Part shown: piece by piece, positions 18,260-46,420 of the stretch | How the letters are laid out: each line of letters opens with the position of its first letter | Position numbering within the stretch: the stretch's first letter is position 1 | Source of the DNA: Burhinus oedicnemus | Lineage: Eukaryota > Chordata > Aves > Charadriiformes > Burhinidae | DNA length: 64,000 bases | Assembly (NCBI GenBank): GCA_008921705.1 | Contig: VFFE01009164.1 | Coordinates: 2,656,785-2,720,784 of the forward strand | Reading direction: 5' to 3' | Position numbers and translations under genes: made by a program | Notes under the pieces: model-generated | The model's input: only the letters and a program-made list of their open reading frames with translations | Told to the model about the DNA's origin: nothing | Database searches by the model: none

Positions 18260-18376
18260 TTAACTCACAGTATCAAAATCTTTAAGTGGTTCACTCAAAC
18301 ACACTTCCAAGTCAAATTCACCTTCTGCTTGATAGTCAACATGTCTAACTTTGGTGGGAGTGCCAGAGCAGGTGTC
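18260..18376 (-). CDS. SLBP: SLBP last coding exon
   Basis: 117 bases including TAA at 18260-18262. It encodes [20 protein letters not shown] and [12 protein letters not shown], the acidic C-terminal tail needed with the RNA-binding domain for histone pre-mRNA processing. Confidence 0.96.
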
Positions 18377-21300
18377 CTGGAATTCAAAGTCAGTTAATAA
18401 TTAGCAGTTAAATACAGGCTTAGTTAGACAATAATTCATTTCACTTCTGTAATTCATTTAGACCACCCTATACCAGAGGCTTACAAACACTTTAAAGGCC
18501 ATGCAAAAAACCAAGGTTAGTCTTAAGATTGAAGAGATTTAAATGAAGGCGTCTGCCCATTCAATCACATTCTAAGATTTCTTGCAAATGTTTTAAGGAT
18601 GTATATATGCATACATTAAAACATGATACAGATTCAATATTCATCAGAGAAATAAATCCAGTAAGAAAAACATTTCTAGATCTTTACTGAAGGTTATTGC
18701 TCAGCTGTACTAAGTGCTTTCTGGATATAAGAAGAACCTACTTCAAGAACTCTGAATATGCCACGAAAATTACATCCTATTTTAACATTAAGATACTGCA
18801 ATCTAAAGTAGCATTTCCACTGTACACCACAATTCATAACTGACATGCTTTGAACAGATAAAGTTTCTTTTGCAGGCTATGAAAAATGAGATTTCTGTCA
18901 TTTGAGACGGTCACTTAAGTTCTCTCTGAACTCAGACTACAAACATATTGGCTGTAGCTGGGAAAATGTCTGAATTTAAAGATTGCTCAGCTTTATAAAC
19001 AGTCCCTAAACACAGTGGATTATGGGATTTCTCATGTATTCAGGCTGGTCTGGATCTAATGCCAAGTAAGAACCAATTATTAACAAATATTTATGCAAGT
19101 GAGAGGTATGCTTACATCATTATCTTGACAGCTGGTTTGAGATTCAGTAGAATTGCTTCCAACAGATTCTGTCTCCATCTCACCAAGGTCAACAGGACTA
19201 CTGTAAAATAATTAACACGCATACAGCTGAAAACAAATTCAGTTGTTTTAGCAGTAAGTTGCACTTTGTAGGTGTAGTTCTGAAAACGATGGCCAAACAA
19301 GAGCAAAGAGACCTACAGAGATTATAGGGACAGTGGTGGCAAATTGCAGAGACCAAACAGAATAGCAGGTCAACCGAATACAGCCAAAAATCAACAAGGA
19401 CTAAATTAAAGTCTTGAGATTGAATATGGCAACTTGTCAAAGATGAATACCCAACACTCAAACAATGCCTCAATACAAATGAAGAAAAATGTTATGGAAG
19501 AGCAAAGAATTTGTATTTTTTTTTCCCCAAGACAAGGTTTTCATCAATTTATTTGGCAACATAAGATTTAATATCCACTATACATAGAACTAGACCCCAG
19601 CATCTGAAGATAGACTAGCATTTCAACACCAACATACACAATAGGCTTCAGGCTGAAATACCAGCTCCTCTCACGAGTACAAGTAAAGGGAAGCTAAAAG
19701 TAACCCTTTGCTTTTATATCCCATTGCTCCATACTGGTATTAAAATCAGCATCACTGCTAGGGAAAAACAGTAGTTTATTACGACAAAACTTTCCTCAGG
19801 AATTAGTTACATCTGTGTACTTTCATTCTGTAGTCCCACAGCTTTAGTGTGGATGTTCCCTGATTAGCTTTATTGCTTTTCTATGGAGGAAAGTAACCAG
19901 TTACATTATTCTACATCTTGTAGAGCAGAATACCACAGTGGCTTGGACTGTGAACACTTGTGGCCATACTTTTAATTTAATGGCACCTTGAGGTGATTTT
20001 ACAAATACTTCTTTCTTTTTCTCTCCTCAAGAAACAAGACTATTTACCACTGTTCTTGAACTAGCAAGTGAGAAGGCTATGAGGCAGGTTCTTGTACATT
20101 GTATTGGTCCAAGCTCAATATTCATGAGATCTGTCAAATAGTTAGAAGTCTCCAGCACTGCATATAGCACAGATTAATCCGCAGACTGCTCTGAAAGAAA
20201 CAGCTTGCCTCAATGGTATGATACTTTCTTTTACAGAGCACTGCAGAACGAGCGCTGATGTCACCCAGTGGACATACATTAAAGAAGTGAGGGATATCTA
20301 TGTATGCCCTAGCAAAGACAGAGGGTAAGTCTAGTCATACCAACTAGGTCTAGAAAGCTATTGCATATTTTGACTGAGAAGGAACTGAATAGCACTAAGC
20401 GTGGACAAGTAACTAAAGAAAACATTCAGCAATCACTGACTTGTCTCAAAAAGGGCTATGCTGTTTTGAGTGGGGTTTTTGTTTTGGGGTTGGGTTTTTT
20501 TTGCCTTTTTTTTTTTTTTTACCATGAGATTTAATATATTAATTTCTATAAAGGTATCTTGAATACTCTATACATACATTTCTTGCAGATCACATCCTTC
20601 TTCAGTAGGTGGATCCCAGGAATGCAATGCAACTTTCCATAGTTTAATTTGCTGGTCCCATGACCGACGGCTGTACTTCTTAAATTTATTTGGAGTTCTG
20701 GGATGAACTCCTGGTATACGATGGCATCTATTCAGATATTAGACATGAAAAATTCATTAATGCTTTTCACACAGCTTTGATAAAACTGATTTATGTTAAG
20801 ACTGACTGCTACACAGAATTTGCTGGGTTGTAATGAGCCTAAGTGATTATATTATTTATGAGAAAAGACTACTGCACAATTCCAGCACTCAAGTGAAAAG
20901 CTGTCAACTCCATATGAACATTTTAGTTTTTCTGTCTTCAACTCAAATGAAAAAAAAATATGGATTATCAATCTTAGGTCTGAAAACGTCAGCATGAAAT
21001 TTCTGCCTAAAATGTATTCCAAACTTAAGAACAACTGTAGTCCATTTTGTCTTTTCGTTCACTAATGAGAATATTGACTGCAAAAAGGAGTTTCATTTCT
21101 TCTAGTTGACAAGCACAACCAAAAGAACTTTCATTTTCATTTCCGCAGCATGAGAAAGTTTGAAGGAATATTCCTCACGTACCAGCTAGTAAAAAAAAAG
21201 TAATCCACATCTCATTTGATTATTAGTGTCACTTATCTGTTAAAAAAATATCTTAGAAGGTTTAATTTGTAGATGCCTTCTGTTTGAAGACCTCAGATAA

Positions 21301-24300
21301 CACATTTAGTATGTTAATATCCTTATAAAGAACAGGTATGACTTACAACCAAACATTTCATTTTCCAGAAACAAAAGCAGCTTACCTAGGAACTTCTTTA
21401 ATGTATCTATCATATGCAATTGTGTTTTTTCCATAGTTTATCTGTTTTTGCCTTCTCATCAAAACCACTTCATCTGTCTCAAGTTCTACTGTCACAGTGG
21501 ACTCTTTTGAATCAGAACTAAAGAAAAAAAAAACATTGTAGATTTGGGACACTAGAAAACAAGAAATACTCAAACTCACGTGTATAAAATTACAAAGAAA
21601 CATGCTAAAACTTTTCAAATGAATGCTTGGGATGTTACTGACCTATGATGTTGGCGCAGACTTAAGATGAACTATTTCAAACTGAGCATTTCCAGAAGCA
21701 ACATGGTACATGGGAAAATTCAGACCTGTTGTTAGGATTTTTCTCAGCTACGCTAGAAATTTAACCTACCTTCCAGAGGATGACTTCCTTTCTCTTGCAA
21801 ATTCATTGATCAGGAGTTTTCTTCTGTATCTGTAAGAGTTCAAATCAGTATTAAGAATATACATACACAAAGAGAACATGTAAGGCTGCACTGTTGCAGC
21901 TCACAGTTGATTTTACTTCTCGGCTAAGCAGCAGTCTTGAAGAAGTCAACCCAGACACTGTAAACACCTTTCCACAGTGGAATGAATGTTTCAGTTTTCT
22001 CCTAGAAAAAATGAAATCTGAGGACCTTCTTTTCCTAAGTCTTTTCCCTAAAAATCTTTTTATAGCAATGATATGCAAAACCAGTAATTAGTGAAAGGAC
22101 AGTCAAGGTAATTCAATCTAAGACATTCAGGAAAGGACTCTTCCAAAAGGGAGATATTTAGTGATACACATCAACTCTCCAGAGCATGCTATCTCGTCGC
22201 TGCAGGACTTAAGCCAAAGCTGACCTAAAAGCAGCAGACAAGAAGCTAAGGTTGGTCAGACTTTACTACAAAGGTGAAGTTGAAAATAAAAGTCAATACA
22301 GATTCTACAAGACAACTACCATTTTGCCCTCCTTTCCCCGCTTCATCTTAAACACCCATGGGTACCTTGCAATCTCTTTGTTAACGCTGGTCCTCATTTC
22401 ATCTTCTTCCACTGCAGTTCCCCAATCTGAACACCGGGAAAGGGGTCCAGGGCCTTCTGGCGTGGTAAAACTAGAAAGAAAAAAACCCAAACCTCAACAT
22501 TAAAATTTTATTTTATTGTATTTCCCACCGCACCCCCAGCATCTCCCCCATTCACAGCTTGATAGCTATTTTATATATTCATTTATAGTACTCATAATGG
22601 CTCTGAAAATCTTGTATTGTTCTAATAAAATGTCATCATTGTAAAATTAAGCATCAGTTGAGAGTTCCACCTTGAGGTTGTGTGGTTTGGGATTTGGTTT
22701 TGGGTTTTTCTTCCTCTTTAAAAGTTTATGTAGAAATCTATAGAAACATATCACTGCAGCACATAACCTAGCCTACACTTTCAATAACTTTAAGCTAGTG
22801 TCCTTCCGAAAACGGCACGTGAAATACCAACTTTACTCATTTACTCACTTATTGTCACTCCACTAAATGAGTTAACAAATACTTATTCTTTCATAATCGT
22901 AGACTCATTAGCTGTTTAAGAGACAAAAGTTAGAACACAAAATTTGTACAGCTAATTAAAATTACACAATAGCACCGGAAGTTTCTCCATGTGAGAGTAT
23001 GCCTAGTAGAAAAGGCAAAGGCACAAAAAGAGCAGTCAATTTTTATCTAGTAAACTGCGATTTGCTACGACTTTGGAAGTTGGTATTTCACAGATTCAGA
23101 TTGTTGCAGGGGAATAAGCTTATAACACCTTCCCAGCCAACAACAGTTGCCTACATTCAGATTATTGAATGTTTTCCAGTTTCTGTCCTCCTGATGACTG
23201 ATTTTCCTAAAATACAAACTCAAAACCATATCCTACAGACCAGAGCTTTTTCCGTAGATCTGGAAACGCTCTGGAGACTTACCAGGATTCTGCGCAGAGA
23301 GTCCCTTGAAGTCAGGGAATTAGATCCATCTGCACTAAAACCAGTTCCAACTCCCTCCCTGCTCCCAGCTCAGAAATTGGTTTGCACTACTTTGAAGTTT
23401 TTGTTAAATTCAAACTAAAAGTTCTTTTTAGATGAAACCCAGTTACCAACTCAGAAAAATTAAAGACTCATAGCAAAGAGTACAGGTCCCTCTACAAGTA
23501 TCTGTTCAGCCTCCAAGGATTTTTAGCATTTGCTTATATTGATTTTTTAACTTTGCTGAAAACGCAGGCCACATTCAGTTATTGCTCTCCCATGGTACAG
23601 AATAGCTCAATCCCAGAGGTACCCAGCTAGTCCCACCACCTGAACTTTTTCCTCAACACTGCATCATACCTTTTTGCACTTGTTTGATTCTGTACCTGTG
23701 CTGTGTATACATAGAATTAGGGACAATGTGGGACAGTCCACAGCTTTTTCTCTCAATTCATTTGCTCTGTGACAGTACTGGTGCCAGACATACTAAGCTT
23801 AGCCGCCTTTATTCAGACACTCATCCCCACGTGCCATTTCACAGTTGGTGAGAAGCTCTGGTGCTGTGCTAGGACTGCAAATCGTGCTCAAACTCTTGCC
23901 AGACGTACAGAAAAGCAAGGCTATAACTGCCCCCCCTTCGCCCCACACTGAATCTGTTGCATGATCCAGCCTCCATCCTGATCCTCTCCCCATTTTAAAG
24001 TTTTATTTTGACAATGTTAAACTGGTGTAAACAAAGAGTAGTTTTAGTACAGGAAAATCACAACTTCAATGAGAGTTGAATCCAAACTAAACCAGAAAGA
24101 ATACCTGTTCAATTCAGTACTGGAAGACACAAAAATCATTGCTTGTTTAGGCTGAAACTGATGGAGCAATCTGTAAAGTTTCATCTTTGTACTCCTATTC
24201 AAACATGCTTCCTGAAATTAATTTCATTTACTCTAGGTGTTTTAATTTGAGCCACTGACCAATGTCTTCCCCGATTATTATCGGGAAAGAAAAGAGGGTA

Positions 24301-25736
24301 GTTACAGGGCGCAACTCATCTCGTTCTAGATTCAATCAGCTGGGCTGCAGGCCACAACTCCCATCCACTGATAAAAGGGACCGTGGCATGAATAGCTCCA
24401 ATGTAGACAGGGATATAAGATACTTTCACTAAACTGAAATTTACCTGTGTTGGGAAATGGTAAGGAAGGCAGCGAGCAGCAGTATGAACAGAGTGAGCGA
24501 CCTCAGAAGCGGACCCCACCACACATGTGCTGACATATTCAGATACAACTTTTCAAGATGGTCTGTACTGACTTGAGAAATATGAGGACAGATGACTTTT
24601 AAGACTTGAATTTTTAATTTGTCATCTCGTTTAATTTTACCACAACAGCATGTACAGTCTATATCCACAAACAAACATAACTGGCTTGCGCAGTTATTGC
24701 TTCGTGATAAATGGCAATAACAAAGAATGAAATAGGACAGAAAATGATGAAGAATATAATTAAAGACATAAGACTGAAAAATGGTTATTCCTAAGAAGTT
24801 CTAAGAAAAGAATGCTGCACTAAATTCTTTTCCTTTGTTTAAGATGAACTATTTACAGTCGACAAGTGATTTATAAGTAGGCAAGGCTTGAAAAAACGAG
24901 TACAACAGCCAATTCAACAGCTCCTGATGAACAAAAGAGCAGAGTTGTCTCTATAGCAAGCGCTGCCTACCTGTCCAGCCTGTTGTCAGAAGGCCTGCAC
25001 TTGTTTTCATCAAACACGGATGAATCGGATTCATTCTGTTTTCTCCGCTTTCCATCTGCGCCACGTTTCCTCCCTTGGGACCAGCGAGGTGGAGGCTGTG
25101 GGCTGGCAGCAGACAAGCCAAGACAAGGTGAGCATGTTAAATGGTTTCATTTTATTAACCTCTCTGAAACATCATCCCATGCAGGCACCATAGCTTATTT
25201 AATAATTCTACTTCCAATAAATGAAGCTTAGCGACACAAGCAGGTGCGGGCCTTAAGAGTCCCTCAGAGGGAAGGGAACTCCGCGATCAACGGCCCCGCA
25301 GCCTGCCCCTCACCGCCCGCCCCCGCAGGCAACGCAGGGAACGGGAGACCCGGGCATTTACACCGCTTCCCCCCTCCCGCAGGAGCTGCAGCCCCGCTCC
25401 CCTCCAGGCGGCCCGGCCCAGCTCCGCTCTCGCTGGGGGACCCGCACCTCAGCGAGGGGCGAGCGGCGGCCCCACGGGGGAACATGGCGGCCCCCGGGCG
25501 GCGGCCGTTGGGGCGCGGAGGCCACGCGCAGGTGCGGGCCGGCCGCGGCTCGCTCCCCCCGCCCGCCCGGCGCGCGGCCCGCCCGAGGGACGGGGAGCGA
25601 GGGCGGCTCGCCGCTGTCTCCGCGGCCGGAGAGCGGGGAGGAGGGGAGGGACGAGTGCCGCTACCCCTCACCTCAGCCCGGGGCAGCCCTACCTGCTCTT
25701 CGTGCCGCCGTGCGGGCTCCTCTGGCGGAAAGACAT
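18260..25736 (-). CDS. SLBP: SLBP, histone RNA stem-loop-binding protein (complete, 8 exons)
   Basis: SLBP binds the conserved 3' stem-loop of replication-dependent histone mRNAs. It guides their 3' processing, export and translation, and normally peaks in S phase. Join on the minus strand: 25736-25693, 25102-24971, 22470-22366, 21829-21770, 21517-21386, 20727-20578, 19200-19116, 18376-18260. The sum is 825 bases, 274 residues plus TAA; human SLBP is 270. All introns are GT/AG. The introns after exons 1-5 are phase 2. Visible motifs: SFTTPEGP at residues 59-66 (the phospho-degron that triggers end-of-S destruction), [14 protein letters not shown] at about 70-83 (the SLIP1/translation motif), YRRKLLI at 95-101 (cyclin A docking), an RNA-binding domain at about 131-203 containing [22 protein letters not shown] and TPNK (T169), and an acidic C-terminal tail ending [12 protein letters not shown]. 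Every regulatory element of the somatic protein is present. The start ATG at 25736 lies in a CpG island and gives MSFRQRSP. Confidence 0.97.
19116..19200 (-). CDS. SLBP: SLBP coding exon 7
   Basis: 85 bases, completing the split Ile codon. It encodes [16 protein letters not shown] and [11 protein letters not shown], an acidic/serine-rich linker that lines up with human ESAESSSEPQTSSQDD. Donor GTAAGC, phase 0. Confidence 0.94.
20578..20727 (-). CDS. SLBP: SLBP coding exon 6 (RNA-binding domain, second half)
   Basis: 150 bases. It encodes [17 protein letters not shown] and [19 protein letters not shown], including the TPNK loop whose threonine is phosphorylated in known SLBPs. Donor GTATGTA, phase 2. 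Confidence 0.97.
21386..21517 (-). CDS. SLBP: SLBP coding exon 5 (RNA-binding domain, first half)
   Basis: 132 bases, phase 2-2. After an SDSKES linker it encodes [20 protein letters not shown] and YDRYIKEVP, the first half of the SLBP RNA-binding domain. Confidence 0.97.
21770..21829 (-). CDS. SLBP: SLBP coding exon 4 (cyclin-docking YRRKLL)
   Basis: 60 bases, phase 2-2, encoding [19 protein letters not shown]. This holds the cyclin A docking site (KRKL in human) and part of a basic nuclear-localisation region. I find no intact equivalent in the second SLBP copy. Confidence 0.96.
22366..22470 (-). CDS. SLBP: SLBP coding exon 3 (TTP degron and SLIP1 motif)
   Basis: 105 bases, phase 2-2. It carries FTTPEGP and the [13 protein letters not shown] block. 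Acceptor TTTCTAG and donor GTACCC are good. Confidence 0.96.
24971..25102 (-). CDS. SLBP: SLBP coding exon 2
   Basis: 132 bases, phase 2 at both ends. It encodes a basic [17 protein letters not shown] stretch, then [13 protein letters not shown] and RLD at the end. Its symmetrical phase means it can be duplicated without breaking frame; relatives of this exon recur at 35.6-38.3 and 44.4 kb. Donor GTAGGC. Confidence 0.93.
25693..25736 (-). CDS. SLBP: SLBP coding exon 1
   Basis: 44 coding bases from the [17 protein letters not shown] plus two bases of a split codon, then donor GTAGGG. It lies in the CpG island. It continues in frame into exon 2 only if the CCAG|CCCACAG acceptor is used. Confidence 0.92.
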
Positions 25737-28595: not shown

Positions 28596-28599
28596 GGTG

Positions 28600-32600: not shown

Positions 32601-34340
32601 AGTGCTAAGAGAAAAACAAAGGAGAGCCTGTTTCAACCCTGTCACAACCCTTAGCCTGGACACCCCATGCCTAAGAGCAGCTCCCAATCTGTAAATACTG
32701 CTGCTCACCTCCAATTCCTGTAGGAACAGCAGGCACTGAACTCCTCCTTTTATACTCTTAGAAGTAGATTGACCCTTCGGGTCAGGCTGCACCACTCATA
32801 AAAGCAAAATCCAGGTATTTAGGCTATGTTGCTGTTCAAACAGTCACTCATCCCCTTGAAGAGAGTGATCTGATTTTGATAAACCGTCTACCTTCCCTTT
32901 CTCTTCTCTCACTAGGCTTAGGCAAATGCTAGCTTAATATACTTTATCTCAGAGTGGTAAATATGCCAAATGGACGATCACCCAATCCAAAAGCTAAGAA
33001 CAGTTTGTCTTTAATAGTGGAGAAAGGTTGAAATTATCTACATTCTTTTGAAGCGGTTCTTCGGGTTGGATGTACAATCCTGGTCCAGTAGAGGAAACAA
33101 GGTTTAACTCCTTGATTTAAGGGGTGGCATTCTTCAGTTTGACTTGGCATTGGACCAATTCACCAGCATAACAGTAGTGGACTCTAAGTAGCATGATCTC
33201 CAAATGGCAACAGTGGGATCCATCAACTGAAGTAGCCTTTACAATATGATGCACATGTCATCTGTCAACGCAGGTAAAGCAGAAACAGTCTCACAAAAGC
33301 TTTAAGGAACATCCATCATCGTTGTAGCACAGGCTTAATGAAATCTGGTTTTACACTTGAGGCAGAGTTTGCAGAAAACAATCTATCCTTAAAGATGTGG
33401 AGAAACCTAAACAGAAAGGTAGATAACAGCATTTTATAAATATGATACATCTAGTCATCAACAGCAAAACACTTACACTTCTAAGCTCTAGTGTTACAGA
33501 AGTAAATGGAAGACAGCACTGCATATGGGGACCTTAAAGCACAGCAGAAAAGACAAAGCCATATTCTCCATACTAAAGAAAGTGTTACAGATAGTATGAA
33601 CACTTTGAGAATGTAAGTTGTTGGAAAAACAAAGGGTACTGCATACTCTATATTCCTGAAGTATTTGTCAAAGAGAAAATGAAGCAGTTGAGCCTATCTT
33701 TCCCAACCCCTTGCATCATTTTCATTATTAATTCATAGAACACATTTTCCTCTCAATTCTAATTAACACATTGCTGCCGTATCTTAACTGTCCTGCTGAC
33801 TAAGGTTTTTTCCTTTAAAAAGCATCCAGATACATTCAAAACTTATGGACATTTAACTGGGCTCCAAAACAGCCACATTTATTTTTCTTGTTTAAGACAA
33901 AAATTTTCTTATAGCAAAAAGGCAGGTGTGTGGAATTCTACCATGTAACCTGCTATCTGGTTTTCAAGCAACATTCACCTTCCACAGATGAAGTTCCTGC
34001 CATTTGAGAGTTAGAGCTCATCACACTTAACAAACGTGGTTCAAGGCAGTGTCTCTCTCAAATATTGAGCTTTGCATCCCAGGAAACCAATGTGTTGCTT
34101 CACAGATAAGCTATTTAACTCACTTTCTACATTTTTCATGCCACAAAGATAGTTCTTCAATTAGAATGAGCAATTATGAACCCACTGAGTATATGCACTC
34201 CTTATTAGAGCCTTATTTACAACAAAGAACTGCAAAGTAGCTAAATATCAACTGTGTAGAAGATCAGAAAGGCTCTCAACTGTTATGTACAGAGGCATGC
34301 TTCTTTTACCTTCACATTTCACCTTACGTTGATTGCACAT
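29690..34340. other. Intergenic and possible 3' UTR sequence downstream of the SLBP2-like locus
   Basis: No intact gene. On the minus strand a strong acceptor (TTTCTGTTTAG at about 33,410) opens a short frame that stops quickly. A segment at about 33,050-33,110 resembles a badly decayed first half of SLBP exon 6 (CCAGGA..GTACATCC..AAC). AATAAA signals occur on the minus strand, for example 33,878-33,883. Confidence 0.4.
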
Positions 34341-34344
34341 ATGC

Positions 34345-34487
34345 TGACTGTAAATCTCTTCCTCTTTCAGTGCAGATTTTATGCGACTGCACCAGTTTTC
34401 CAAGACTTGATCTGCTGATCTCAGGCTATATCCCTATTCTTCAAATCATTTTCTGTCACAGGAGAAAGTCCTCCTTCTTCGATACTT
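34345..34487 (-). pseudogene. Decayed SLBP exon 4/6-like remnant
   Basis: On the minus strand a pyrimidine-rich acceptor ends at 34,488. It is followed by a stretch that can be read as YRRRR in one frame, recalling exon 4 (YRRKLL). Just downstream, GATCAGCAGATCAAG..TGGAAA recalls the exon 6 segment encoding DQQIKLWK. Stops interrupt both. The resemblance is by eye and weak, but it sits in the order expected after the exon 2/3-like copies. Confidence 0.35.
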
Positions 34488-35241
34488 CTATATACAAAGA
34501 GAGACTAGATATTTTCAAATATTGAATTAGCACTTTAGAAGAGTGAATCCATATTAAGTCTTATTCACGCTCAAAGAATTTAAATTAAAAATTAATAAAG
34601 TCACTAGAAAAAATGCCATTACCCCGATTTTTTTTTAAAAGCTCTGCCTTTTCTTCATTTTGCTAGAATTCAAAACCTAAGTAGTGTATAACTGTGTGCC
34701 ATAGTCTTAATACCATATTCTCAATGAGTTTTATTATGCAAAATATTCCAAGATCACTGTTAAACAGACCTTTATATCTTAGTCCATAATGTTTCAGAGC
34801 CTGCATTAAGTATAGATCAAAGATAACCAAATTACACAACAGACTACTGATTAAAAAAAGCTGCCTGACTCAAGATACTACCCATCCTATTAATGAACCA
34901 CATCTACAGTCCAAAGAAAATTTTCATTAAAATCTACCGCTGCAAATGTAAAGTTGTGGCTTCCTCACAAAAATATTAAGAGGCAGAAAAGCTGCTACTG
35001 ACATAGTTTTAAGAAAACTGGCACTTTTCATTTGGCTGATAAGATAAAATACGTTGTTTTCGGCTGAACAGGAAAATAATTAAGGTGCTGCACTAAATAC
35101 ATGAGGATGGGATAAAATACTAATATAATCAAGGAATAAAGAGAGAAACTGATTTGCTTGAACAGTTTGCTTCTGTAGAACAATACTGCTTATAGGCTAC
35201 TGAAACAGAACAGGTAAAATAAGTAGTCAGCACAAACTCAC

Positions 35242-35355
35242 CTTGGTATTTAAATTTTCTTCCTCATTATTCTATCTTCAGCACTTGCACTTCTCCATCC
35301 CCTTTCAGGGTATTCTGACTGATGTCCTTCCAATAAACCGCTACAAAGTTTAAGC
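35242..35355 (-). CDS. SLBP exon-3-like segment with in-frame stop (possible terminal exon)
   Basis: 114 bases between a good acceptor (TTATTTGTAG) and a strong donor (GTGAGT), phase 2-2 in length. Read in phase 2 it gives SEYPERGWRSASAEDRIMRK, aligning with exon 3 of the second SLBP ([13 protein letters not shown] and [12 protein letters not shown]). A TAA at 35250-35252 stops the frame four codons before the donor. If transcribed with the exons upstream, this is where the reading path would end. It may equally be a decaying exon copy. Confidence 0.5.
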
Positions 35356-35647
35356 CTACAAATAAAAAGAAAAAAAAAACCACCAAAGACTAAGTAGCTT
35401 TATTATGATAACTTTTTTATACTTAAATACAGCTGCAACCTGCTACTTACTCTAAGACAGACTATAATGTGAGAACATACGGACAGAATTTTACCACACA
35501 ACACAAATATTGGCCAATCCATCCCTAAGAATAGTAAAGAAATCCATATTTATAATAAAAGCTTGGATTGAAATACAGCAATAAGGTAACTATGCTTCTA
35601 ACTTAATACACAAAAGAAGCCCCCGATTGATAAGCTGAGTTTTATAC

Positions 35648-35761
35648 CTCTCCAGCCTGCAGTCTGTATCTCTCCAAGTTTTGCTGTCAGGCAGAAACAA
35701 GCTGGTTTTTTTCTGTTTCTCATTGTTCCATCCTGAAGAACAACTGGCTGGAATTGGGTCA
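35648..35761 (-). CDS. SLBP exon-2-like copy (most diverged)
   Basis: 114 bases, open throughout in phase 2-2, acceptor TTTTTATGCAG and donor GTATAA. It encodes SSGWNNEKQKKTSLFLPDSK and ends CRLE plus AG, the ending of the exon-2 family (canonical RLD, other copies WLE, TLE). The VFDE core is not preserved. Homology rests on the ending, length, phase and order. Confidence 0.5.
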
Positions 35762-36179
35762 CTGCATAAAAACAAGTAACTATCATTGTTGTCAGCTGCA
35801 AAACAACTTAATCTCTCAAAAGACAGAAAGGAAGCTTACAGCTCCTATGCTGAGGAGGTGAGAGGCTAGTAACAACCATGGGGACCAGTTCTGTAAAATG
35901 CCACGGCTTTCCATTAAGACAAAGCGGGTTTAAGGGGCTCAGCATCTTCCAGCATTACTTAATAGTAGAAGCAGCAGAAAGTAATAGATGGAGAGCCAAA
36001 CTGGAAAAAGCCAAGCGAACTCAAAGAACAACAAACAAACATACCACACGTTGGAGGAAGTGTAAGTAGGAAAAGAGTAGTATTAAACAGCGAAGGAAAA
36101 AGAAGATAAAAAAAGCCAAGAACACCTTCACAGCACAAGCAATAAACAGAAAGAACTTCATAATCTTTATGGTATTTAC

Positions 36180-36287
36180 CTTGTTATTTCTATACCACGT
36201 TGTACTGTCATTACTTCGTCATTTTCACCAAAGGCTTCCCACTCTGTGCACTTTGAAAAAGCCTCTTGATGTCCTGATTCAGTAAGA
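36180..36287 (-). CDS. SLBP exon-3-like copy
   Basis: 108 bases, open in phase 2-2. It has a very good acceptor (CTTTCTTTCTAG) and donor GTAAAT. It encodes LTESGHQEAFSKCTEWEAFG and then ENDEVMT, aligning with canonical [20 protein letters not shown] and EEDEMRT. The TTPE phospho-site is lost (LTES), and the DW of the translation motif is changed to EW. Confidence 0.65.
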
Positions 36288-37355
36288 CTAGAAAGAAAGT
36301 GAAAAGGTCTGAAACCATGGATCTTTGTGTCACAGTTCCTCTTAATTCTTCTGAAGATAAGGGGGCTAAGTAGAGAGAAAAAAGCACACCTGTATAAACA
36401 TTTTTACTAAGATTAGTATGAAAAGTCTACTAAACCCCAAAAAACTTAAATCACTGTTACAGTTTTCTTGTGGTTCTGACAAAACTGTATACGGTGTTAA
36501 ACCATGCTCTCCTCTACATAGCCTATTATTTCCCATTTATAGGAAGACTTCTTATGCAGCAGCTAGGAAAGGGGAAAAAAAGAAGTACGAATAAAACCAA
36601 TTCCTAGCGGAGTAGTTTAATTCCTGAACAACTCAGAATAATGAAGGTGTTAGCCTGAAAAAATTTACCCTTCTATTATCCATTTTTTAACATTAACCTC
36701 ACTCTGTCCCAGTCCCGGGCTGGGTGACCAATTCCTTGCTGTTCCAACAAGCATTTTCTTCCGTATCATCTTTCGTAAGGCAGGGAAAAGCTTAATCAAA
36801 ATACACAAAGCTTCTTTCACATCCCTTCACGAATACATATTCTCTGTAATACCTGTAGCCAATGTAACATGGCAGTAATTAAACAGGCAGTGAGTTTCAG
36901 TATTCACTGACTGACTTAGGAGTGCACATTGGGCTCCATTCCTTTACTGTAACATTCATCAACTTGCACACACTCTGCATGCCAAAAAGCACAATGCAGT
37001 GCATGTAAGAGGTACGGGAAATAACCATGGCAGACACCTAACAATTTCAGAATGACAGCCCCTGAAGCAGAAACCAGGTTCCATGAGAAACCAAGAACAA
37101 CACATTAGTGTTGCCTAAAAATAACCTGCATTGTGTCTTCTGACACTGAAGTTTCTTCACCTTAGCAAATATTTACAGTGGTCCATTGCAATCATACAAC
37201 ACAATTATTCTGGCATGATTTCCTTTTCTCATTAAATTGCACACACATTTAGAGAAAATTAAAGCTATTTAACAAATGGAGGGATAAATACCAGTCATAT
37301 TCCGAAAGTCGGTTCATAATGTCAATAAATCTCCATACGGAGAATGATTTCATAC

Positions 37356-37472
37356 CTTTCCAGTGTGTGGTACATATGCACATAATGGTTTTTGCTCTTT
37401 GAAACCACAGAGGAGTCAGAATTGTTTCTTTTTCTGCGTTTCCATACTGGAGAAGAATCAGGAGAACAGGGA
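37356..37472 (-). CDS. SLBP exon-2-like copy
   Basis: 117 bases, open in phase 2-2, acceptor TTATTTTTATAG and donor GTATGA. It encodes [20 protein letters not shown] and ends HTLE plus AG. It aligns with canonical exon 2 (basic patch, then [10 protein letters not shown]). It is the same length as exon 2 of the second SLBP at 44.4 kb. Confidence 0.65.
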
Positions 37473-38138
37473 CTATAAAAATAAGACACAGATTTTACAC
37501 ACACATTTTCCATCTGTGTTTAAATGCTTATCAGAGTTCTGCAAAATAATGGCACATGCTACACAGGAAAACTTTTTGAGGTATGATTCTTCAGTCACAA
37601 CAGAGGAAAACAGAGAAAACAGCTCAAATTTTGGTAACAACTCCACTGTATTTTGAAAAGTGAACCCAATCACAATCACACAAGAAACTTGGAAGCACAA
37701 CCATTTTTGGCTCCACACTCATACCCTCAGATCAAGATATCTCAGTGAACAGGGAAGTGCATGAGGTGCTTCACTGTTAGTCTCCCTGGTCTTCTGCAGA
37801 CATGAATAATACTGTTAATTAAGGATTCTTCTGAAAAAGGTATCCTATTTTCAGCACTTGCCAACAGTGGTTAAAGAAACCTCAGTACTCCACTGTATAA
37901 ACAGAGAAGCTGAAAAAACACTGCCTTTTTCTGCTGTTAATCATGCAATTCTGTAATTCTGACAATTCTTCCATTCGGTGCTCTGTACCAGTGATGGATT
38001 ACATTTAACAGCAAAAGTGCCAAACTCCGAGTCTGAGCGTTAACTGCACTCCCTCATTAAACATTTCCTAAAAACCTGACAGCATTGACATGTATTGAAT
38101 TATTTCAGTAAGTTAACCACAAAAGTTTTATCTCATAC

Positions 38139-38276
38139 CTTTCCGGTGTGTAGTCAGTCTGTCTGCATTCATCTTCACACTCATTTCTCTTCTGCTTTTC
38201 GTCAAATACAAGGGAGCCAGAATCGTCCTGATGTTTGCAGAACCATTCTTGGGAACTGCCTGAGGGTTCCGTACTA
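38139..38276 (-). CDS. SLBP exon-2-like copy (best conserved)
   Basis: 138 bases, open in phase 2-2, acceptor CCTGTTTTTAG and donor GTATGA. It encodes [20 protein letters not shown] and ends TDYTPE plus AG. The [10 protein letters not shown] core matches [10 protein letters not shown] (exon 2 of the second SLBP) and [10 protein letters not shown] (canonical). It lies 0.8 kb downstream of the RNA-binding-domain exon of the second SLBP. In the homologous phase-2 junction it would follow that exon in frame. Confidence 0.65.
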
Positions 38277-39105: not shown

Positions 39106-39255
39106 ACTGGCTGCAGATCCCAGTTTTCTTCACTAGGAGGATCCCAGGCATGTAGTGCTATCTTCCACAGCCTGATCTGCTGGTCCCAGGATCTACGGCT
39201 GTACTTCTTGAATTTGTTGGGAGTTCTAGGATGAACTCCTGGTATTCGCTGATTC
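39106..39255 (-). CDS. SLBP2-like exon 6 equivalent (RNA-binding domain, second half)
   Basis: 150 bases, the same length as the canonical exon. It encodes [17 protein letters not shown] and [19 protein letters not shown]. The donor is ambiguous. The homologous position gives CCAGT|GTGTGT (phase 2, joins the 38.28-kb exon in frame). A better-looking GTATGA four bases on (end 39102, phase 0) would place TAG at the start of that next exon. Read-through stops at TGA one codon later. Confidence 0.93.
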
Positions 39256-42200
39256 CTGTAAATATACAGTAACATTTATTATTTCAGAACAAGATTTTCG
39301 TTCTTAAAAAAAAAATCCTCAGTCCATCAGATCACAGAGGCACCAGTGGTCTAATACATAAAATATTCATATTTTTAAACATGTAGCTGAAATACGTATG
39401 CTCTAAAACACTGTCAAAAACAGACCGCACAAGCAACAACTAACAATGACATGCTGAGTCAGACCAGAGGTTCATCCAGTCCAGCACCCACAGCTGCCAA
39501 AAGCAGATCCCTACTACCCATGGAGAAAAACGAAACAGAAGCAGCATAATTCATACCCCCTCAATAGTAACCTAGCCTCCAGCTACTTCTGTCTCAGTTT
39601 TTTCCTTTGTATCTAGTATCATACTGAGTCTGGCTGGGATGGAGTTAACCTCCTTTACAGCAGTCCCTGTAGTGCTGTGTTTTGGATTTATGGCTAGAAC
39701 AGTGCTGATAACATACTAATTTTTGGCTGTTGCTGAACAATGCTTGCACAGCTTCAAGGCCTTCTCTTTTACCTGCCCTGCCCCCTCCCACAGCCACTAA
39801 GCTGAGGGTGAACAAGAAGCTGAGAGGGGAAGCCACTGGGACAGCTGACTTGAATTACCCAAAGAGAAATTCCACACCATATAATGTCATGCTCAGCAAT
39901 AAAAAAGGGGCAGAGGAAGAAGGGGAGATGTCTTCCGAAGTGGCCACTGCTCAGAGACTGTCACGGCACCTGTCTGCGAGTGACTGCTTTTGCATTACTT
40001 GCCNNNNNNNNNNNNNNNNNNNNGCCCCCCCCCCCCCGCCCCCTTTTTTTCCTTCACCTACTAAACTGCCCTTATCTCAATCCATCAGTTTGCTTGCTTT
40101 TGCTCTTCCTGTTTCCCCATCCCACCAGGGAGAGGAAAGGGAGCAAGTAGCTGTGTGGGTACTTGGCTGCTGGCAGGGGTCAACCCATAAGTATCTTCAA
40201 TGAACTTTTATTCCACCATTGTCCGTGCAATATTACAATGGGGATTACTATAATTCTAAAGAGCATTTGTTTTTTGGGAGCATAGACAACAAAGTACCCC
40301 CACTCTCTAGGTAAAATGTAAATAATATGCCCTTCCACTGAACCTACGCTGGGCAGACATTATAACAATGCTGTCCGGGACCAACCAATGGCTTGAAGTG
40401 CTATTTTTCCAATGGTAACCCAAATGCCGATCCTGCCCACCACAGATCACTGGCGAGCTCACTCAAACTGTATCTTCAATATAAAATAATCCTGTTTATA
40501 GTCCTACCATATTGGAGTCATTTTTAAGTTTTAAATCACACAAAGTACCTTGGTCTCAAGTGGTTCCCCCTATCAGCTTCACAGACCAATGGACTTAGCC
40601 ATAACATTTTTTGTAAGATAAAAACACACCCCTGCTAAAGAACATTATTATAAACCACCCCATTAAAATGCCACCCAGAACACTCTTTTTAATTTTATCC
40701 CATGTTTTTTTCTGAACATTGTTCTCACCCTTTCCTATTCTCCACCTGTGGTTTAACAGATCACAGCACAGCTATCCAAGTCCCAGGCATCACCATAAGT
40801 GATGTCCTACCACTGAGGACAAAATTACAATTCACAAAGCAATTCAAGACTCTTTGGAGAAATAAGTGTTACTGAAGATGTGATCACGATATTGTGTGGT
40901 ATCTGTGATCAATTACTGTATCTGTTGTTGATTTTTAGTCATCTAGTCTAATCTTTCAAGTTTAGCTCAACAACAAGCTTGCAGTGTCCACTGCACTTCG
41001 CTGGCAATTTTCACAACAGACTCCTGCAAGTAGAATACAGAGAAAGCTGGCAACTCTAAGTAGTAAGCCATATTTAGAAAAACACCTCTAAAAATAACCC
41101 TCAAAACAAAAAAACGCAAGAACACAGATGCACATCCACACATTAGTACAGACTAGCTTCTGAATCTTGACAGATTACTCTGCAGTAATCAGAGGGGGCT
41201 GGCTAAGAAATCTTGATTTCAAGTGCCACAATTCACAGACTCTGAAGCTCAAAGTGGAATGACAGAGAAAGCAAGAAATCCAGGTTTTCATTTGTTAGTT
41301 ACTGATGAATCACTGAAGACTGGTTTCCCTTACCAATACTTAAATGCAAGGCTTTATTCAGTCCTCATTCAAAGATGTAATTTCCTAGTATCAATTAACT
41401 TCACCCTGGCCTAGCAACACAGTCACCAGAAGTGTCACAGGGAGCTGATTAATACAGAATTTATTTAAATTATATATGCTACTAGCAACGGCAATACACA
41501 AAGGGAATATTTAGCTTTAAATTTTCGCTACCTACATTTTCTTGTATGCAGAAAATACCTGGCTTCTCTTTGATAAAAATAATTTTTTTTAAAGTTTTCT
41601 TCACTTACTGTTCATATAATTTTAAGAGAACTAAAGCTGTGTGCTGACCTACAGACACGTCAGGAACAAATAAGAGTTTATTTGGAAACATACAACATAG
41701 TACAACTTACTTCGGAACTTCTTTAATGTATCTGTCATAGGCAAGGGTGTTCTTTCCAAAATTGATCTGTTTCTGTCTTCTCCTAAGAACCACTTCATCT
41801 GTTTCCCTTTCAGCTGGATTAGCAGAAGCACTTGAAACAGAACTTAAAAATAAAAATTAGAATTAAGTTGAAAAGAACCTTAATAGCTTTACAACAAGTT
41901 ATATAAACACATACTCTAGAACTGCATGTATTCTTACTCTGATAGCGCAACTCTTACTTCACTGGTTTGCAGAAGTGAAAGTTGTGCAAACCAAATAAAT
42001 CACTACAACAAAAAGAGTAGGTTTTGCAAGTTAACGCAATTGCTCAGGTTTGTAACAAGTAAACATACACTCAAGGGTACCAGTGCTAGAGCTGCCTTAC
42101 TAAAAGCTTATAGCTAGTCCTACAACAAGCAAATCAAATGGTACATGATTACTGCATATACGTCTAACAGCCTCCCAATATAAATATGAAAAGGCTTAAA

Positions 42201-45200
42201 TTCAATAAAACGAAGATGAATAATGTAAAGGAGGCTAGTTTGAATGATCTAATAGCCATTTCTCTTTATAGGCATTGACAGTTGTTTTTCATTTTTCCTT
42301 TCATTATCCAATATTTTCTCTTATGGAAAGTTGCAATGAATACGCAATTTAAGCTGAAAAAGAAGAGCATATGAAATGATCATACAAGTAGCTTTTGAGA
42401 TAAGACTTCTCAGTGCTAGTCTCTCCTTAAGGCTTCCTTTAGGTTTGACAAAACAGCCTGGCTATGTTTCAAATCTTCACTAATGCACGTAAAGTAGCCG
42501 GAGATCATCAGATGGCTATTGCTAAAACCAATGCAACAATAGTTAAGAATTACTCAATACCTACTTTGTAATTTTTTTATTTGATGTCCTCATTGTTTTG
42601 CCTTCTTCAATTCTACCTTCCCAGTCAGGGCAACCAGAAAGAGGCCTAGAATATTCTGCCGTTGTAGAGCTGGAAAATAACGAGGACTCGATATGAACAT
42701 TTGATGCTCATAACATATTTAATGAACAGAAACTTCAATAGTGGACAAAAACAGCTCCACAATTGTAACACCATGGGCATGCCTCTACTCTATTTCAGTT
42801 CGAAGTCAAACGAATTGAAACACTTCAACTCAAGTCACCTTCAGCAGCAATGTAAGATTATCAGTTTTACTTTGCAGGGAAAGAAAATGGTCATGAAGTG
42901 AAATTCACGTCAGAATATAGACCTGAACATCTCTTAAAATACTCTCAGCTTAGCCAATGCTTCTTTCTACTCCTTGAGGACCTTCTCAATACCGCCATTC
43001 CATCAAAGAGCACAATAAATGGTCAAAATCATCAGTCTGTGCCCTGCTCTCTGTCATCAGCTAAGGACTTTGTAAAAGACAGAGGAGACACTGAAGAAAC
43101 AGAAAAATGCCTATCACATCAGCAGAACAAACATTTTGTCAGACACCATTGTATCCCAATATATTATTTCAAGAATGTAAGCTCTGCTGTGTAAAGCCAA
43201 AAAGGGAGCCAGGAAACTCTTAGTTAAATAACAGTTGGATCACTGCTGTTCTCTGAGTGAAGGAACGCTTACCGGGTTCCTCATTAACTTAAAAAAAAAA
43301 ATATAATAAATGACAACTGTAGAATGCTGTAATATTCTGAAGCGCTGAAAACTCCTCCTTTCAGTCTGTCCGCTTCTTTCAATGTTAATACCTCAACATT
43401 TAGCGCAAGTAATACGGATTTAGCTTATGATCTTCCTTTCCCTAAGCAGTTCCACATCCACAGATAAAACTACTATCCAAGCTGCCAATGTCATTTTAAC
43501 ACATGACAAAGATTCCACACTAAGAAGAAACATATCTACTCAGCAAAAGCAAAACACAAAATGCTGCTAGCACATCCAGTTTGACTCACAATTGTAACAT
43601 ACTGTTACTATTTTTTATGATAGCATCAAAGACATAGAAAACACTCCTGAATACAAGATCTTTCCTAAGCTCTTCAAAAGATTCATTTATTAACTGAAGC
43701 AATATTAAACATGCCATCAGAAATTACAGTTGCCTTCATATAACGTAATACTCAGAAATAGATATGATATATTATTTTCATGTGCCCTCAGTAAAATATT
43801 TCTTCTCTTCTAACTTATGTTCTACTCAGTTTTCTGCACATATCCAAGCACTCACCACTTTTCATACTTCCCGTCAGACATTAAGATACCAATCTCAACC
43901 ACTTCCTCCACCTGAGGCCTTTAGTCTAGAACATCCAAAAGCAAAGCAAAATACTCCTGGAACTACCTATAACATCTCAAATTGTACTTGGTACTAGACT
44001 ACCAAAAAAAAAAAAAAATTTCTAAAAACTGTAGTACAGCTGAATATACCAAGTGCACTGCCAAGTGAAGAGACAAACATGGTTTGCCCATACTTACATC
44101 TAGATGCGTAAGCAAAGCATAAAAAGTAAAAGCATATTGCTTCAATGGGAGTTTTATAATAACATTGAAGATTTCAGCAATAAAGGGCTTAAACTACTGC
44201 ATCAGTATATACCATTTCTCTCTTTCATATGGAATACTTGCTAATATTATGGCATGTATTTTAATTAGCCAGACTGAATGGTCTACTCTTGCATAATGCA
44301 GGTATCATTTGCTAACTCTGTGCTACTGTATTGTTAGTAAAAAATTAATTTAATCACGTCCAAGGTTTTGTTGGATTCCGAAAGAAAAGAATGCAGCAAA
44401 GTGAAGATTTAAAGAAACTTCACATTCATTCCGTACCTCTCCAGCCATTGGTCTAAATGCCTACATTGATATTCATCAAACACCAAAGAATCTGAATCAT
44501 TCCAGCTTCTATATTCCTGTTCTTGATGCCAGAAGTGTGGATGTTGCAAAGAACTAGAAAATAAGAATTTTCATCAGAAATCAAGTCACTGGTAGTCACC
44601 GAACATTGCCTATACAAAATAAATATGGACAATCTGAGTATAATCATTTATAGTTACAAAATGCTGATTTGGCACAGGTATGTGATTTGCATCAACTTAC
44701 TCATTCAGGCAACACTAACTTAAGAAAGGTGTTAGACGATGCAATTGCTGAGAAAAGGTCTTTGACTAATGCAATTAAGACATCAGAATTTTAAAATAAA
44801 CTGTTAATATTTAGACAATCAAAAGTATATCCCTTCTCTATTTGCAAACAAAAAGGGGGAAAAAACCCACTGAAGACTGTCATCAGTATTTACGGAACTG
44901 CTGACATGTGCCAGCATTCATAGATCCTCTCTCAGCAGTGCATTATTTGACATTTATATACCATACTATCCAGCACTAAACTCATGGAAGAGGCAAATAC
45001 AGAAACATCACTTCAACACAGGAAAATCGCGTGTCTAAGGAGAAGTAGGTCAAACGTTTATGTGGAAATAGTTTTACACAGGAAATTCTTTACCAGAAGC
45101 TGCTGCGGAGTCGTCACAAGTAAGTACGGGACAAGGAGCTACAGCAGGGTGCTTGCAACATGCTGGAAGGACAGCCAGAGATTGCTTAAGGATTAAGAGT

Positions 45201-46420
45201 TACCTACGTTTTCTTCCTCAGTTTTGGCAGCTTTGACATCTTAGATGATAGATTATTAAACAAAACGCTGTCATAGCATCTGCTAACATCAGACCTGGCT
45301 TCTGGGTAAGGACCACACCTGCAGACCAGCCACAACCTGCCTGACAGAATGACCCTCTATTGCAGACTCCACACAGTAAATACGCTGTTGCTCTGTATGT
45401 GCAAGTAAACAGTAAACGTACTGTTCTGTATGTGTGAGGTCTCTGTGCTCTTTAAGTCAACAAGTGAGAGGGAAGGAAGGTTTTTGTTATTTTAATCCTG
45501 GATTACCAGCCTATGTTTTTTTTCCCTTCCTCCTCCTCCACACTGGCCGGCTTTGGGAGTTCCCTCCTCCCAGAGGGCTCAAAGTTACTAACACACACCA
45601 CAAACAGCTTAATCCGAATCACAGATCTAGGCAAAAGGACGCTTTCAACACATTCGTTTTTTGCAAAGACAGTGAATGGATAAAACCTTTCTCTAAGCAT
45701 TCTCAATAACGATTCAATTTAAAGACTTGAAAGAAACAAAACAAGAAAAGAAGCAGCACAGCACCTAACATGCCTTAGCTACAACGCTATTTGAAAATCT
45801 AGGGAAAAATGCTCACCGAAGATTATGCCTTTTGGAAATACTGCACTATTTCGTTATCTCCAGTGCTTTGCAGTCCCCGCCCACGCCAGCATAAGCCTTA
45901 AGGCAGGCCCCAGGGCCCCAGCCGGGCCGGCGGCGCTTCACCCGAGCCCACACACCGCTGCCGGGGCTGCGGCGCACCTTCCGCTCCGAGCCCGACTCTC
46001 TCCCCGCCGCCGGAAGACAGCAAAGCAGCCTCACTCAGCAAGGAGACTCCCTCAGCGAGGGCGCCCGCCCGCAGGGCCCAGGAGGAGACGCCTGCTGGAG
46101 GGCAGCAAACTGCCAGCAGCTGCCTCTCCCCGCTACCCCTCGGGGCTACCGAGGGGGCTGCGGCTGAAGGCGGTAGAGGGTGGACGAAGCCCACCCTGCG
46201 ACCTCCCCACCGCCTACCCCAACAGGCGTCCTGCGACAGGCAGTGCCACACCCCCGCCCGCCGCCACACACCGGAGCCCCGGGAGCTCTACAGACGCCCC
46301 GAGGGAGCAATACCCCCCCCACGCCCCAGCCACCCCGGCCCTCCGCGGCAGCTCCCACCTGCGCAGCTCGTCCGGCTCCCCACCAGCGTGGCGCGGCAGG
46401 CCCCGCTGCCCGCCGAACAT
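39106..46420 (-). CDS. Second SLBP, SLBP2-like (core five exons)
   Basis: A tandem paralogue of SLBP with a full RNA-binding domain, most like the family annotated as oocyte-type SLBP2. Join on the minus strand: 46420-46359, 44553-44437, 42669-42565, 41842-41711, 39255-39106 (566 bases, about 189 residues). It begins [15 protein letters not shown]. Exon 3 has STTAEYS where the canonical gene has FTTPEGP, so the proline-directed phospho-site is gone. The translation motif is partly kept (DWEGRIEEG). No exon equivalent to exon 4 (cyclin docking YRRKLL) is found between 42,565 and 41,842, and skipping it keeps phase. The domain reads [40 protein letters not shown] (TPNK from residue 150). No canonical tail exon is visible. 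The gene may end just after exon 6 or continue into the exon array at 35.2-38.3 kb. Confidence 0.9.
39445..39600. repeat. Possible ancient LINE (L3/CR1-like) fragment
   Basis: TGCTGAGTCAGACCAGAGG followed by TTCATCCAGTCCAGCA resembles the conserved 3' block of ancient amniote L3/CR1 elements. It is very diverged and lies next to the LTR in the same intron. Confidence 0.4.
39621..40189 (+). mobile_element. Solo LTR of an avian endogenous retrovirus
   Basis: The stretch follows a common avian LTR: GAGTCTGGCTGGGATGGAGT at the start, GTCATGCTCAGCAATAAAA in the middle, then a CTACTAAACTGCCCTTATCTC block. It ends TTGGCTGCTGGCAGGGGTCA. Six-base direct repeats AGTATC at 39615-39620 and 40190-40195 bracket it, as expected of a target-site duplication. 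No internal region is present, so it is a solo LTR. It lies in the intron between the two RNA-binding-domain exons of the second SLBP and contains the assembly gap. Confidence 0.8.
40004..40023. other. Assembly gap (20 N)
   Basis: Twenty N bases inside the solo LTR, followed at once by a C-rich run (40,024-40,043). The gap is probably a polymerase or assembly failure at a C homopolymer, so its true length is unknown. Confidence 0.95.
41711..41842 (-). CDS. SLBP2-like exon 5 equivalent (RNA-binding domain, first half)
   Basis: 132 bases, identical in length to the canonical exon, phase 2-2, donor GTAAGT. It encodes [20 protein letters not shown] and [10 protein letters not shown]. One notable change from the canonical copy is Tyr to Phe in INYGKNT. 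Confidence 0.95.
42565..42669 (-). CDS. SLBP2-like exon 3 equivalent
   Basis: 105 bases, identical in length to the canonical exon, phase 2-2, acceptor TTTTCCAG and donor GTAGGT. It encodes [20 protein letters not shown] followed by [12 protein letters not shown]. The degron TTP is TTA, while the DW..xEE translation motif is recognisable. Confidence 0.92.
44437..44553 (-). CDS. SLBP2-like exon 2 equivalent
   Basis: 117 bases, phase 2-2, acceptor TTATTTTCTAG and donor GTACGG. It encodes [20 protein letters not shown] and ends WLE plus AG, aligning with canonical [18 protein letters not shown] and RLD. Confidence 0.92.
46359..46420 (-). CDS. SLBP2-like coding exon 1
   Basis: 62 bases: [20 protein letters not shown] plus two bases, donor GTGGGA. 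Phase 2 matches exon 2. An ATG 37 bases upstream (46457) has almost the same context, but it is out of frame and reaches a stop in exon 2, so 46420 is the better start. Confidence 0.8.

Follow-up and report, generated by a model that had tools for sequence, protein, structure and literature searches.

Why should a row of exon-like segments, each resembling the exons for the N-terminal part of the histone hairpin-binding protein SLBP, stand behind the second of two SLBP genes, and could these segments still be coding? The question is raised by a stretch of 64,000 nucleotides (nt) from the bird Burhinus oedicnemus (assembly GCA_008921705.1, contig VFFE01009164.1, positions 2,656,785 to 2,720,784 of the forward strand), hereafter the window, the minus strand of which carries SLBP-A (25736-18260), SLBP-B (46420-39106) and, beyond the latter, five segments here called S1-S5. 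An earlier note, made from the letters of the window, had described them as an array of duplicated N-terminal exons; copies of exons 2 and 3 they are in four of the five cases, but an exon array is not the whole story, as a decayed exon 6 follows them. The answer proposed here, for which the reasons to accept and to doubt are in our judgement evenly balanced, is that S1-S4, probably ending in S5, are protein-coding now or were so until very recently, as C-terminal exons of SLBP-B captured from a dead third copy of the gene. Individual exons are designated by gene letter and number (A2, B6).

The array and its homology to SLBP exons

All five segments occupy the positions first reported for them (Table 1) and, as had also been described, each is preceded by AG and followed by GT, has a length divisible by three and both begins and ends in phase 2; S1-S4 are fully open, and S5 bears its stop near the end, an in-frame TAA at 35252-35250, 8 nt short of its donor. 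The acceptor of S1 is a tandem TAGTAG (38279-38274), with the exon starting at 38276 or 38273 (plus or minus one residue). The donor form AG-GTATGA, which had been ascribed to several segments, is found in two of the five, S1 and S2; the donor of S4 is GTATAA, that of S3 GTAAAT and that of S5 GTGAGT. Neighbouring, mutually homologous and in one phase, S1-S4 have the character of tandemly duplicated exons, and the disabled frame or splice sites that mark a pseudogene are absent from them; such marks are present in the exon 6 relic, and S5 has its stop. Taken alone, S1-S5 are without an RNA-binding domain, and none is exon-5- or exon-6-like. S2 codes for WKRRKRNN, a basic cluster resembling a nuclear localization signal (NLS), S3 retains the Trp of the CTIF/SLIP1 region (CTEW), and the Trp is also kept in S5.

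Homology was sought with DNA profiles built from each exon plus 15 and 10 nt of flank, run over both strands of the 64 kb and requiring no open frame. A profile made from A2 and B2 only found S2 (expectation value, E, 1.7e-4), S1 (2.0e-4) and S4 (7.4e-4), the next match having E 1, and one made from A3 and B3 only found S3 (4.9e-7), with S5 at E 0.83 behind two unrelated places; leave-one-out profiles gave 2.6e-10 for S1, 2.8e-10 for S2, 1.1e-5 for S4, 6.9e-6 for S3 and 2.1 for S5. The identities first suggested, exons 2, 2, 3, 2 and 3, are thus borne out by DNA profiles for S1-S4 and are weak for S5. At the protein level, tblastn with the A2 and A3 peptides matched S2 (E 0.001), S3 (0.044), S1 (0.36) and S4 (14), with S5 unmatched; the global alignment of S4 with A2 (z 2.4, its score reached by 13 of 500 shuffles) is no better than that of the wrong-family pair A3-S1 (z 2.6, 5 of 500), and as DNA, S4 is 64% identical to A2 over 90 nt (E 0.022). 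S5 aligns with S3 at z 4.3 (0 of 500 shuffles), its scores with A3 and B3 being reached by 26 and 12 of 500. Alignment with exons 2 and 3 of the two genes therefore holds at the DNA level for S1-S4, S4 being weak as protein and S5 weak altogether. On these comparisons S1-S3 can be taken as certain copies of SLBP exons, S4, on the DNA evidence, as nearly certain, and S5 as probable. Searched genome-wide (1.17 Gb in 1504 contigs), the protein of S1-S4 has four matches, all of them at the array locus itself.

A decoy search counted open phase-2 segments of 102-141 nt between AG and GT whose splice scores equalled or exceeded the weakest of S1-S4; its thresholds are thus set by S1-S4 themselves, and among the 10 exons of SLBP-A and SLBP-B that were scored, only A3 and A5 pass both thresholds and length range. 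The minus strand of the window holds 11 such segments, seven of them SLBP rows (S1 twice, S2, S3, S4, A3 and A5) and four non-SLBP, and the plus strand holds 3, which makes seven non-SLBP segments on both strands; in the 3 kb of the array about 0.2 would be expected and four distinct ones are observed. The view that open, splice-ready segments are here in excess of chance is upheld for S1-S4.

Table 1. Positions of the array segments, the exon 6 relic and the exons of the two SLBP genes in the window.
Feature	Position	Strand	Remarks
S1, exon-2-like	38139..38276	-	138 nt, open, phase 2-2; DNA profile, splice scores
S2, exon-2-like	37356..37472	-	117 nt, open, phase 2-2; DNA profile
S3, exon-3-like	36180..36287	-	108 nt, open, phase 2-2; DNA profile
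S4, exon-2-like	35648..35761	-	114 nt, open, phase 2-2; DNA profile; weak at protein level
S5, probable exon-3-like	35242..35355	-	114 nt, strong splice sites; possible terminal coding exon
Decayed exon 6 (RNA-binding domain, second half)	34338..34487	-	two in-frame stops and a frameshift
SLBP-B exon 1	46359..46420	-	ATG 46420, CpG-rich DNA; assigned by position, open reading frame and phase; homology to A1 not demonstrated
SLBP-B exon 2	44437..44553	-	tblastn, DNA comparison, DNA profile
SLBP-B exon 3	42565..42669	-	degron TTP replaced by TTA
SLBP-B exon 5	41711..41842	-	RNA-binding domain, first half
SLBP-B exon 6	39106..39255	-	RNA-binding domain, second half
SLBP-A exon 1	25693..25736	-	tblastn
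SLBP-A exon 2	24971..25102	-	tblastn, DNA profile
SLBP-A exon 3	22366..22470	-	FTTPEG degron, SDW; tblastn, DNA profile
SLBP-A exon 4	21770..21829	-	YRRKLL
SLBP-A exon 5	21386..21517	-	Pfam RNA-binding domain match
SLBP-A exon 6	20578..20727	-	Pfam RNA-binding domain match
SLBP-A exon 7	19116..19200	-	
SLBP-A exon 8	18260..18376	-	with stop

Probable remains of a third SLBP copy

Just beyond S5 lies exon-6-like DNA, detected at 34514-34398 by a sensitive comparison with B6 (E 0.019) and at 34470-34337 by a profile of A6 and B6 (E 9.4e-4, third in the window behind A6 and B6 themselves); its alignment with A6 covers most of the exon, and its branch, at about 0.62 substitutions per site, is similar to those of S1-S4. 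The pieces follow one another in the order 2-2-3-2-3-6, as they would in an SLBP gene whose block of exons 2 and 3 had been doubled. Because this decayed exon stands where it does, the array is probably the debris of a third tandem copy of the gene, which probably once stood behind SLBP-B. No relics of exons 4, 5, 7 or 8 above chance were found in or near the array, and tblastn with the 14-residue A1 peptide gave no match at 33-39.1 kb.

SLBP-A and SLBP-B

SLBP-A reads as an ordinary SLBP of eight exons, of which exons 2-6 each begin and end in phase 2, so that they could be skipped, repeated or moved in frame. SLBP-B consists of exons 1, 2, 3, 5 and 6, each with its splice sites and the frame open throughout; its RNA-binding domain belongs to the SLBP family (PF15247, SLBP_RNA_bind, 105.3 bits against a cut-off of 27) and matches the human SLBP chain 4l8r_C (E 1.9e-44), and the four PF15247 matches in the whole genome are the RNA-binding exons of these two genes. 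If exon 6 is left unspliced, the protein ends in DLQPVCV, with a stop three codons past DLQP. An assembly gap of 20 N, beside a run of G, occupies 40004-40023 in the intron between exons 5 and 6, and a second ATG in a near-identical context (46457-46420, CCATGTTCGG), 37 nt ahead of the start of SLBP-B and out of frame with it, possibly opens an overlapping upstream reading frame.

Once S phase is over, the degradation of human SLBP depends on Thr61-Thr62-Pro63 in exon 3 and on KRKL in exon 4; the protein is imported into the nucleus by way of RKRR (exon 2), KRKL and KVRH near the C-terminus, and it requires Trp75 for the binding of CTIF, the exon 3 region also mattering for SLIP1 and translation (PMC3764509). 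SLBP-B reads TTAE in place of the TTPE phosphodegron of SLBP1, has no RKRR in its exon 2 and shows no recognisable exon 4 in its intron 3 (42564-41843); single-sequence queries for exons 4, 7 and 8 found in the window only those of SLBP-A. With its degron changed to TTA and no exon 4 found, SLBP-B looks free of S-phase degradation; the degron and the cyclin-binding site of exon 4 are marks of SLBP1 regulation, not of membership in the SLBP family.

As DNA, the two genes can be aligned at exons 2, 3, 5 and 6, and their introns are otherwise unrecognisable; intron 1 of SLBP-A (25516-25374) does match the B1 region in GC-rich sequence, a likeness that is probably compositional. Over exons 5 and 6, nonsynonymous divergence (dN) is 0.15 and synonymous divergence (dS) 1.02, values that suggest purifying selection on both RNA-binding domains and mark the duplication as old. 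Bird DNA changes at about 2e-9 substitutions per site and year, which would place the duplication, very roughly, at the order of 250 million years. The tandem position of SLBP-B and the high likeness of B5 and B6 to A5 and A6 (74% similarity for exon 5) speak for a duplicate of SLBP-A rather than for SLBP2, the second SLBP of other vertebrates.

A proposed tail for SLBP-B

The homology, splice sites, open frames and great divergence of S1-S4, the decay of the exon 6 behind them and the low dN/dS of the two RNA-binding domains are the observations on which the following sequence of events would rest. A third tandem SLBP copy would have arisen behind SLBP-B and doubled its block of exons 2 and 3. 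The RNA-binding exons of that copy would then have died, and its exons 2 and 3, all of phase 2, would have been spliced straight onto exon 6 of SLBP-B, which is possible because that exon also ends in phase 2. In this manner the array exons would take the place of exons 7-8 and yield a protein of 382 codons that keeps the histone hairpin-binding domain and has neither the TTP degron nor the cyclin-binding site of exon 4, so that it would probably remain stable when S phase is over, and it might act in the oocyte or early embryo. Joined in order, the exons of SLBP-B and S1-S5 do form a single frame of 382 codons ending at the stop of S5. This frame has basic clusters (at least four K/R in six residues) in three places, namely the RNA-binding domain, S2 (KRRKR) and the end of S5. 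It also has five S/T-P sites, one of them the TPNK of the RNA-binding domain and the other four grouped where S1 meets S2. The tail would thereby offer an NLS-like element, a cluster of four S/T-P sites and one or two additional Trp motifs of the translation region, all of them, as read from the sequence, resemblances to such elements; splicing and function of the array are predictions.

CpG-rich DNA, in the bins at 24-27 and 33-48 kb, surrounds A1 and B1 only and is absent from the array. Between 39280 and 36621 there is no AATAAA or ATTAAA; past B6 the first ATTAAA comes at 36621, and AATAAA occurs at 35404 and at 34735, the latter 0.5 kb behind S5, an argument that is weak, with 28 such hexamers in the 20.5 kb scanned. 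From the distribution of CpG and the placement of these hexamers, the array is most simply seen as part of the transcription unit of SLBP-B.

If the array is spliced in this way, a gene would have taken exons from a dead neighbour, enabled by the common phase of SLBP exons 2-6, a bird-type SLBP would be exempt from S-phase degradation, and the case would bear on the way in which maternal histone mRNA is stored and translated in species that have no SLBP2. It is also conceivable, if rather improbable, that a degron-free tandem SLBP took over the maternal role as another locus, perhaps SLBP2, decayed, with the tail drawn from the exons of a dying sister and regulation rebuilt behind the RNA-binding domain.

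Age, constraint and rival explanations

S1, S2 and S4 share with exon 2 of SLBP-A or SLBP-B 46-56% of the aligned sites, and K80 branches from the A/B node measure 0.52 for S1, 0.53 for S2, 0.58 for S3, 0.67 for S4 and 0.69 for S5, rough values from a protein-guided alignment near saturation. A recent duplication is ruled out by this identity and by the unalignable introns of the two genes, and the recent origin that the earlier note had allowed as an alternative is excluded by a divergence of 0.5-0.7 substitutions per site in each copy. Neutral evolution was simulated in 1500 runs per exon, starting from B2 three times and B3 once, with 0.05 or 0.1 indels per substitution; the joint probability that four exons stay open and splice-ready was 0.031/0.012 at 0.05 substitutions per site (d), 0.001/0.00017 at 0.1 and 2.4e-8/2.1e-11 at 0.3, and a separate simulation with a fuller indel model agrees for d 0.2-0.6. 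Since joint neutral survival is so low and the branches are so long, S1-S4 would have been working exons for most of their history, any neutral stretch covering at most the last 0.05-0.1 substitutions per site.

Several observations weigh against a coding tail on SLBP-B. A protein-guided comparison of codon positions, favourable against SLBP-A and mixed against SLBP-B, was dropped as biased and confounded by the A branch, and was for that reason replaced by a test on DNA-only alignments at sites where A equals B; in this test, of low power with 279 comparisons pooled over S1-S4, the shared base is kept at first, second and third positions in 63 of 103, 67 of 97 and 48 of 79 cases (61%, 69% and 61%; p = 0.30). 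The same count gives 23/41, 25/43 and 16/28 in the decayed exon 6 and 16/21, 10/22 and 11/16 in S5. With no codon-position bias, S1-S4 show weak amino-acid constraint or none that can be detected. Between the copies dN is close to dS (0.86/0.95 for S1-S2, 0.95/0.93 for S2-S4; for the pair S1-S4, 0.73 and 2.14), and dN exceeds dS in two of the eight comparisons of S1-S4 with SLBP-A or SLBP-B (B2-S4 and B3-S3). The profile flanks tilt detection slightly toward kept splice sites. The donor of B6, GTGTGT, scores low on a home-made matrix (-0.5; that of A3 also reaches just 0), B6 could by itself terminate transcripts with the DLQPVCV stop, and exons 7 and 8 of SLBP-B may escape a single-sequence query. 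The AATAAA at 35404 falls between S4 and S5; S5 carries a stop and its homology is weak, and its label as exon 3 is doubtful, depending mainly on its place, its splice sites and the alignment with S3. S1-S4 have preserved their frame and splice sites and hardly their sequence, a pattern that agrees with a disordered, linker-like tail and just as well with exons that have recently become functionless.

The latter possibility leads to the main rival of capture by SLBP-B, namely that the array is what remains of a third tandem SLBP gene, functional until recently and now in decay, which lost its RNA-binding exon first and S5 next, with S1-S4 as yet unhit. The decayed exon 6 behind S5, the stop in S5, the near-neutral pattern of substitution and the gene-like order 2-2-3-2-3-6 would all be expected of such a gene, but its exon 6 has diverged by about 0.6 and acquired stops and a frameshift, yet S1-S4 are unbroken, and for these a neutral time beyond some 0.05-0.1 substitutions per site is improbable; moreover, an exon 5 of the third copy, a match to the A1 peptide at 33-39.1 kb and CpG-rich DNA at the array are all missing. 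We consider this explanation possible though somewhat unlikely. That S1-S4 serve instead as alternative upstream exons of SLBP-A, a transcript started upstream or reading through from SLBP-B being spliced to A2, would suit the position of the array upstream of SLBP-A on the same strand and the common phase 2-2, with S4 joining A2 in frame; it is very unlikely, however, given that the array is separated from A2 by about 9.5 kb and by the CpG-rich region of A1, that the stop of S5 would have to be skipped and that the array has no promoter-like CpG signal.

The array might also be an active third gene that consists solely of N-terminal exons and is driven by a promoter of its own, the product of which would act as a decoy by binding SLBP partners without RNA. 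The open frames of S1-S4 and the Trp retained in S3 and S5 agree with this, but there is no CpG-rich DNA at 38-40 kb, and such a gene appears to us highly improbable. Accidental similarity and open frames in intronic or intergenic DNA are scarcely credible as an explanation: S5 on its own would be compatible with it and S4 is weak as protein, but for S1-S4 chance reading frames are ruled out by the DNA profile E-values and the decoy counts.

Relation to known systems

In human SLBP (also HBP), exons 2 and 3 can naturally be skipped as cassettes, and isoforms without one or both of them involve the same two in-frame cassettes as the array, with the NLS, the degron and the CTIF/SLIP1 region (PMC3764509); in these isoforms, however, exons N-terminal to the RNA-binding domain are skipped, whereas in the array exon copies stand behind the domain, past the second gene. 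Tandem exon duplications, often alternatively spliced (U2AF1, PMC5224494; arrays of the Dscam type, PMC4835542), likewise consist of homologous, one-phase neighbours between introns, but the copies seen here lie outside a recognised gene, downstream of different exons and beside a dead exon 6. A tandem, unprocessed duplicate pseudogene would also keep its introns, have a dead exon 6 and lack some exons; unlike it, the array has four remaining exons that are open and splice-ready though greatly diverged.

SLBP2 serves as the oocyte SLBP in frog and fish, and human, mouse and rabbit have it as a pseudogene (PMC7226043, PMC7179931); in frog, fish and several mammals it is, like SLBP-B, a second SLBP that differs outside the RNA-binding domain; SLBP-B, in contrast, is in tandem with SLBP-A, and the excerpted texts of those two sources describe no exon array for SLBP2. 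The oocyte-enriched genes of chicken include SLBP, with one SLBP on chromosome 4 (PMC9570461). Among the open-access papers listed as matches, none announces in its title or abstract opening a tandem duplicate of SLBP, or an array of SLBP exons, in birds.

Other SLBP relics and neighbouring elements

A longer SLBP-A query gave 11 matches in the genome, nine on the contig of the window and one on each of the contigs C1253 and C1291. The first of these two (about 267850-268360; L013 4862-4353; E 1.7e-5) consists of the remains of exons 5 and 6 with the intron between them, a frameshift and two stops; its GYQ...LQQVP is reminiscent of SLBP2, and the locus may be what is left of that gene. Neighbouring genes do not serve to identify it, Slbp2 adjoining Zmat2 in teleosts, with different genes there in land vertebrates (PMC7255616). 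The candidate on C1291 has 30% identity and two TGA (E 0.29 genome-wide); at L014 2845-2961 it is 36% identical to exon 6 over 39 residues by tblastn on L013 and L014 alone (E 1.8e-4), and the exon 6 DNA profile finds nothing in that region. No retrocopies of a spliced array transcript were found genome-wide, and no RNA family exceeded its gathering score in the window.

Direct repeats resembling long terminal repeats, at 53618-54214 and 61016-61631, are 83-88% alike and about 7.4 kb apart, and probably represent an old provirus. Reverse-transcriptase-like fragments, which we take to be CR1-like, occupy 28448-29598, with RVT_1 at 28563-28883, and 57080-60652, and have related direct and inverted copies.

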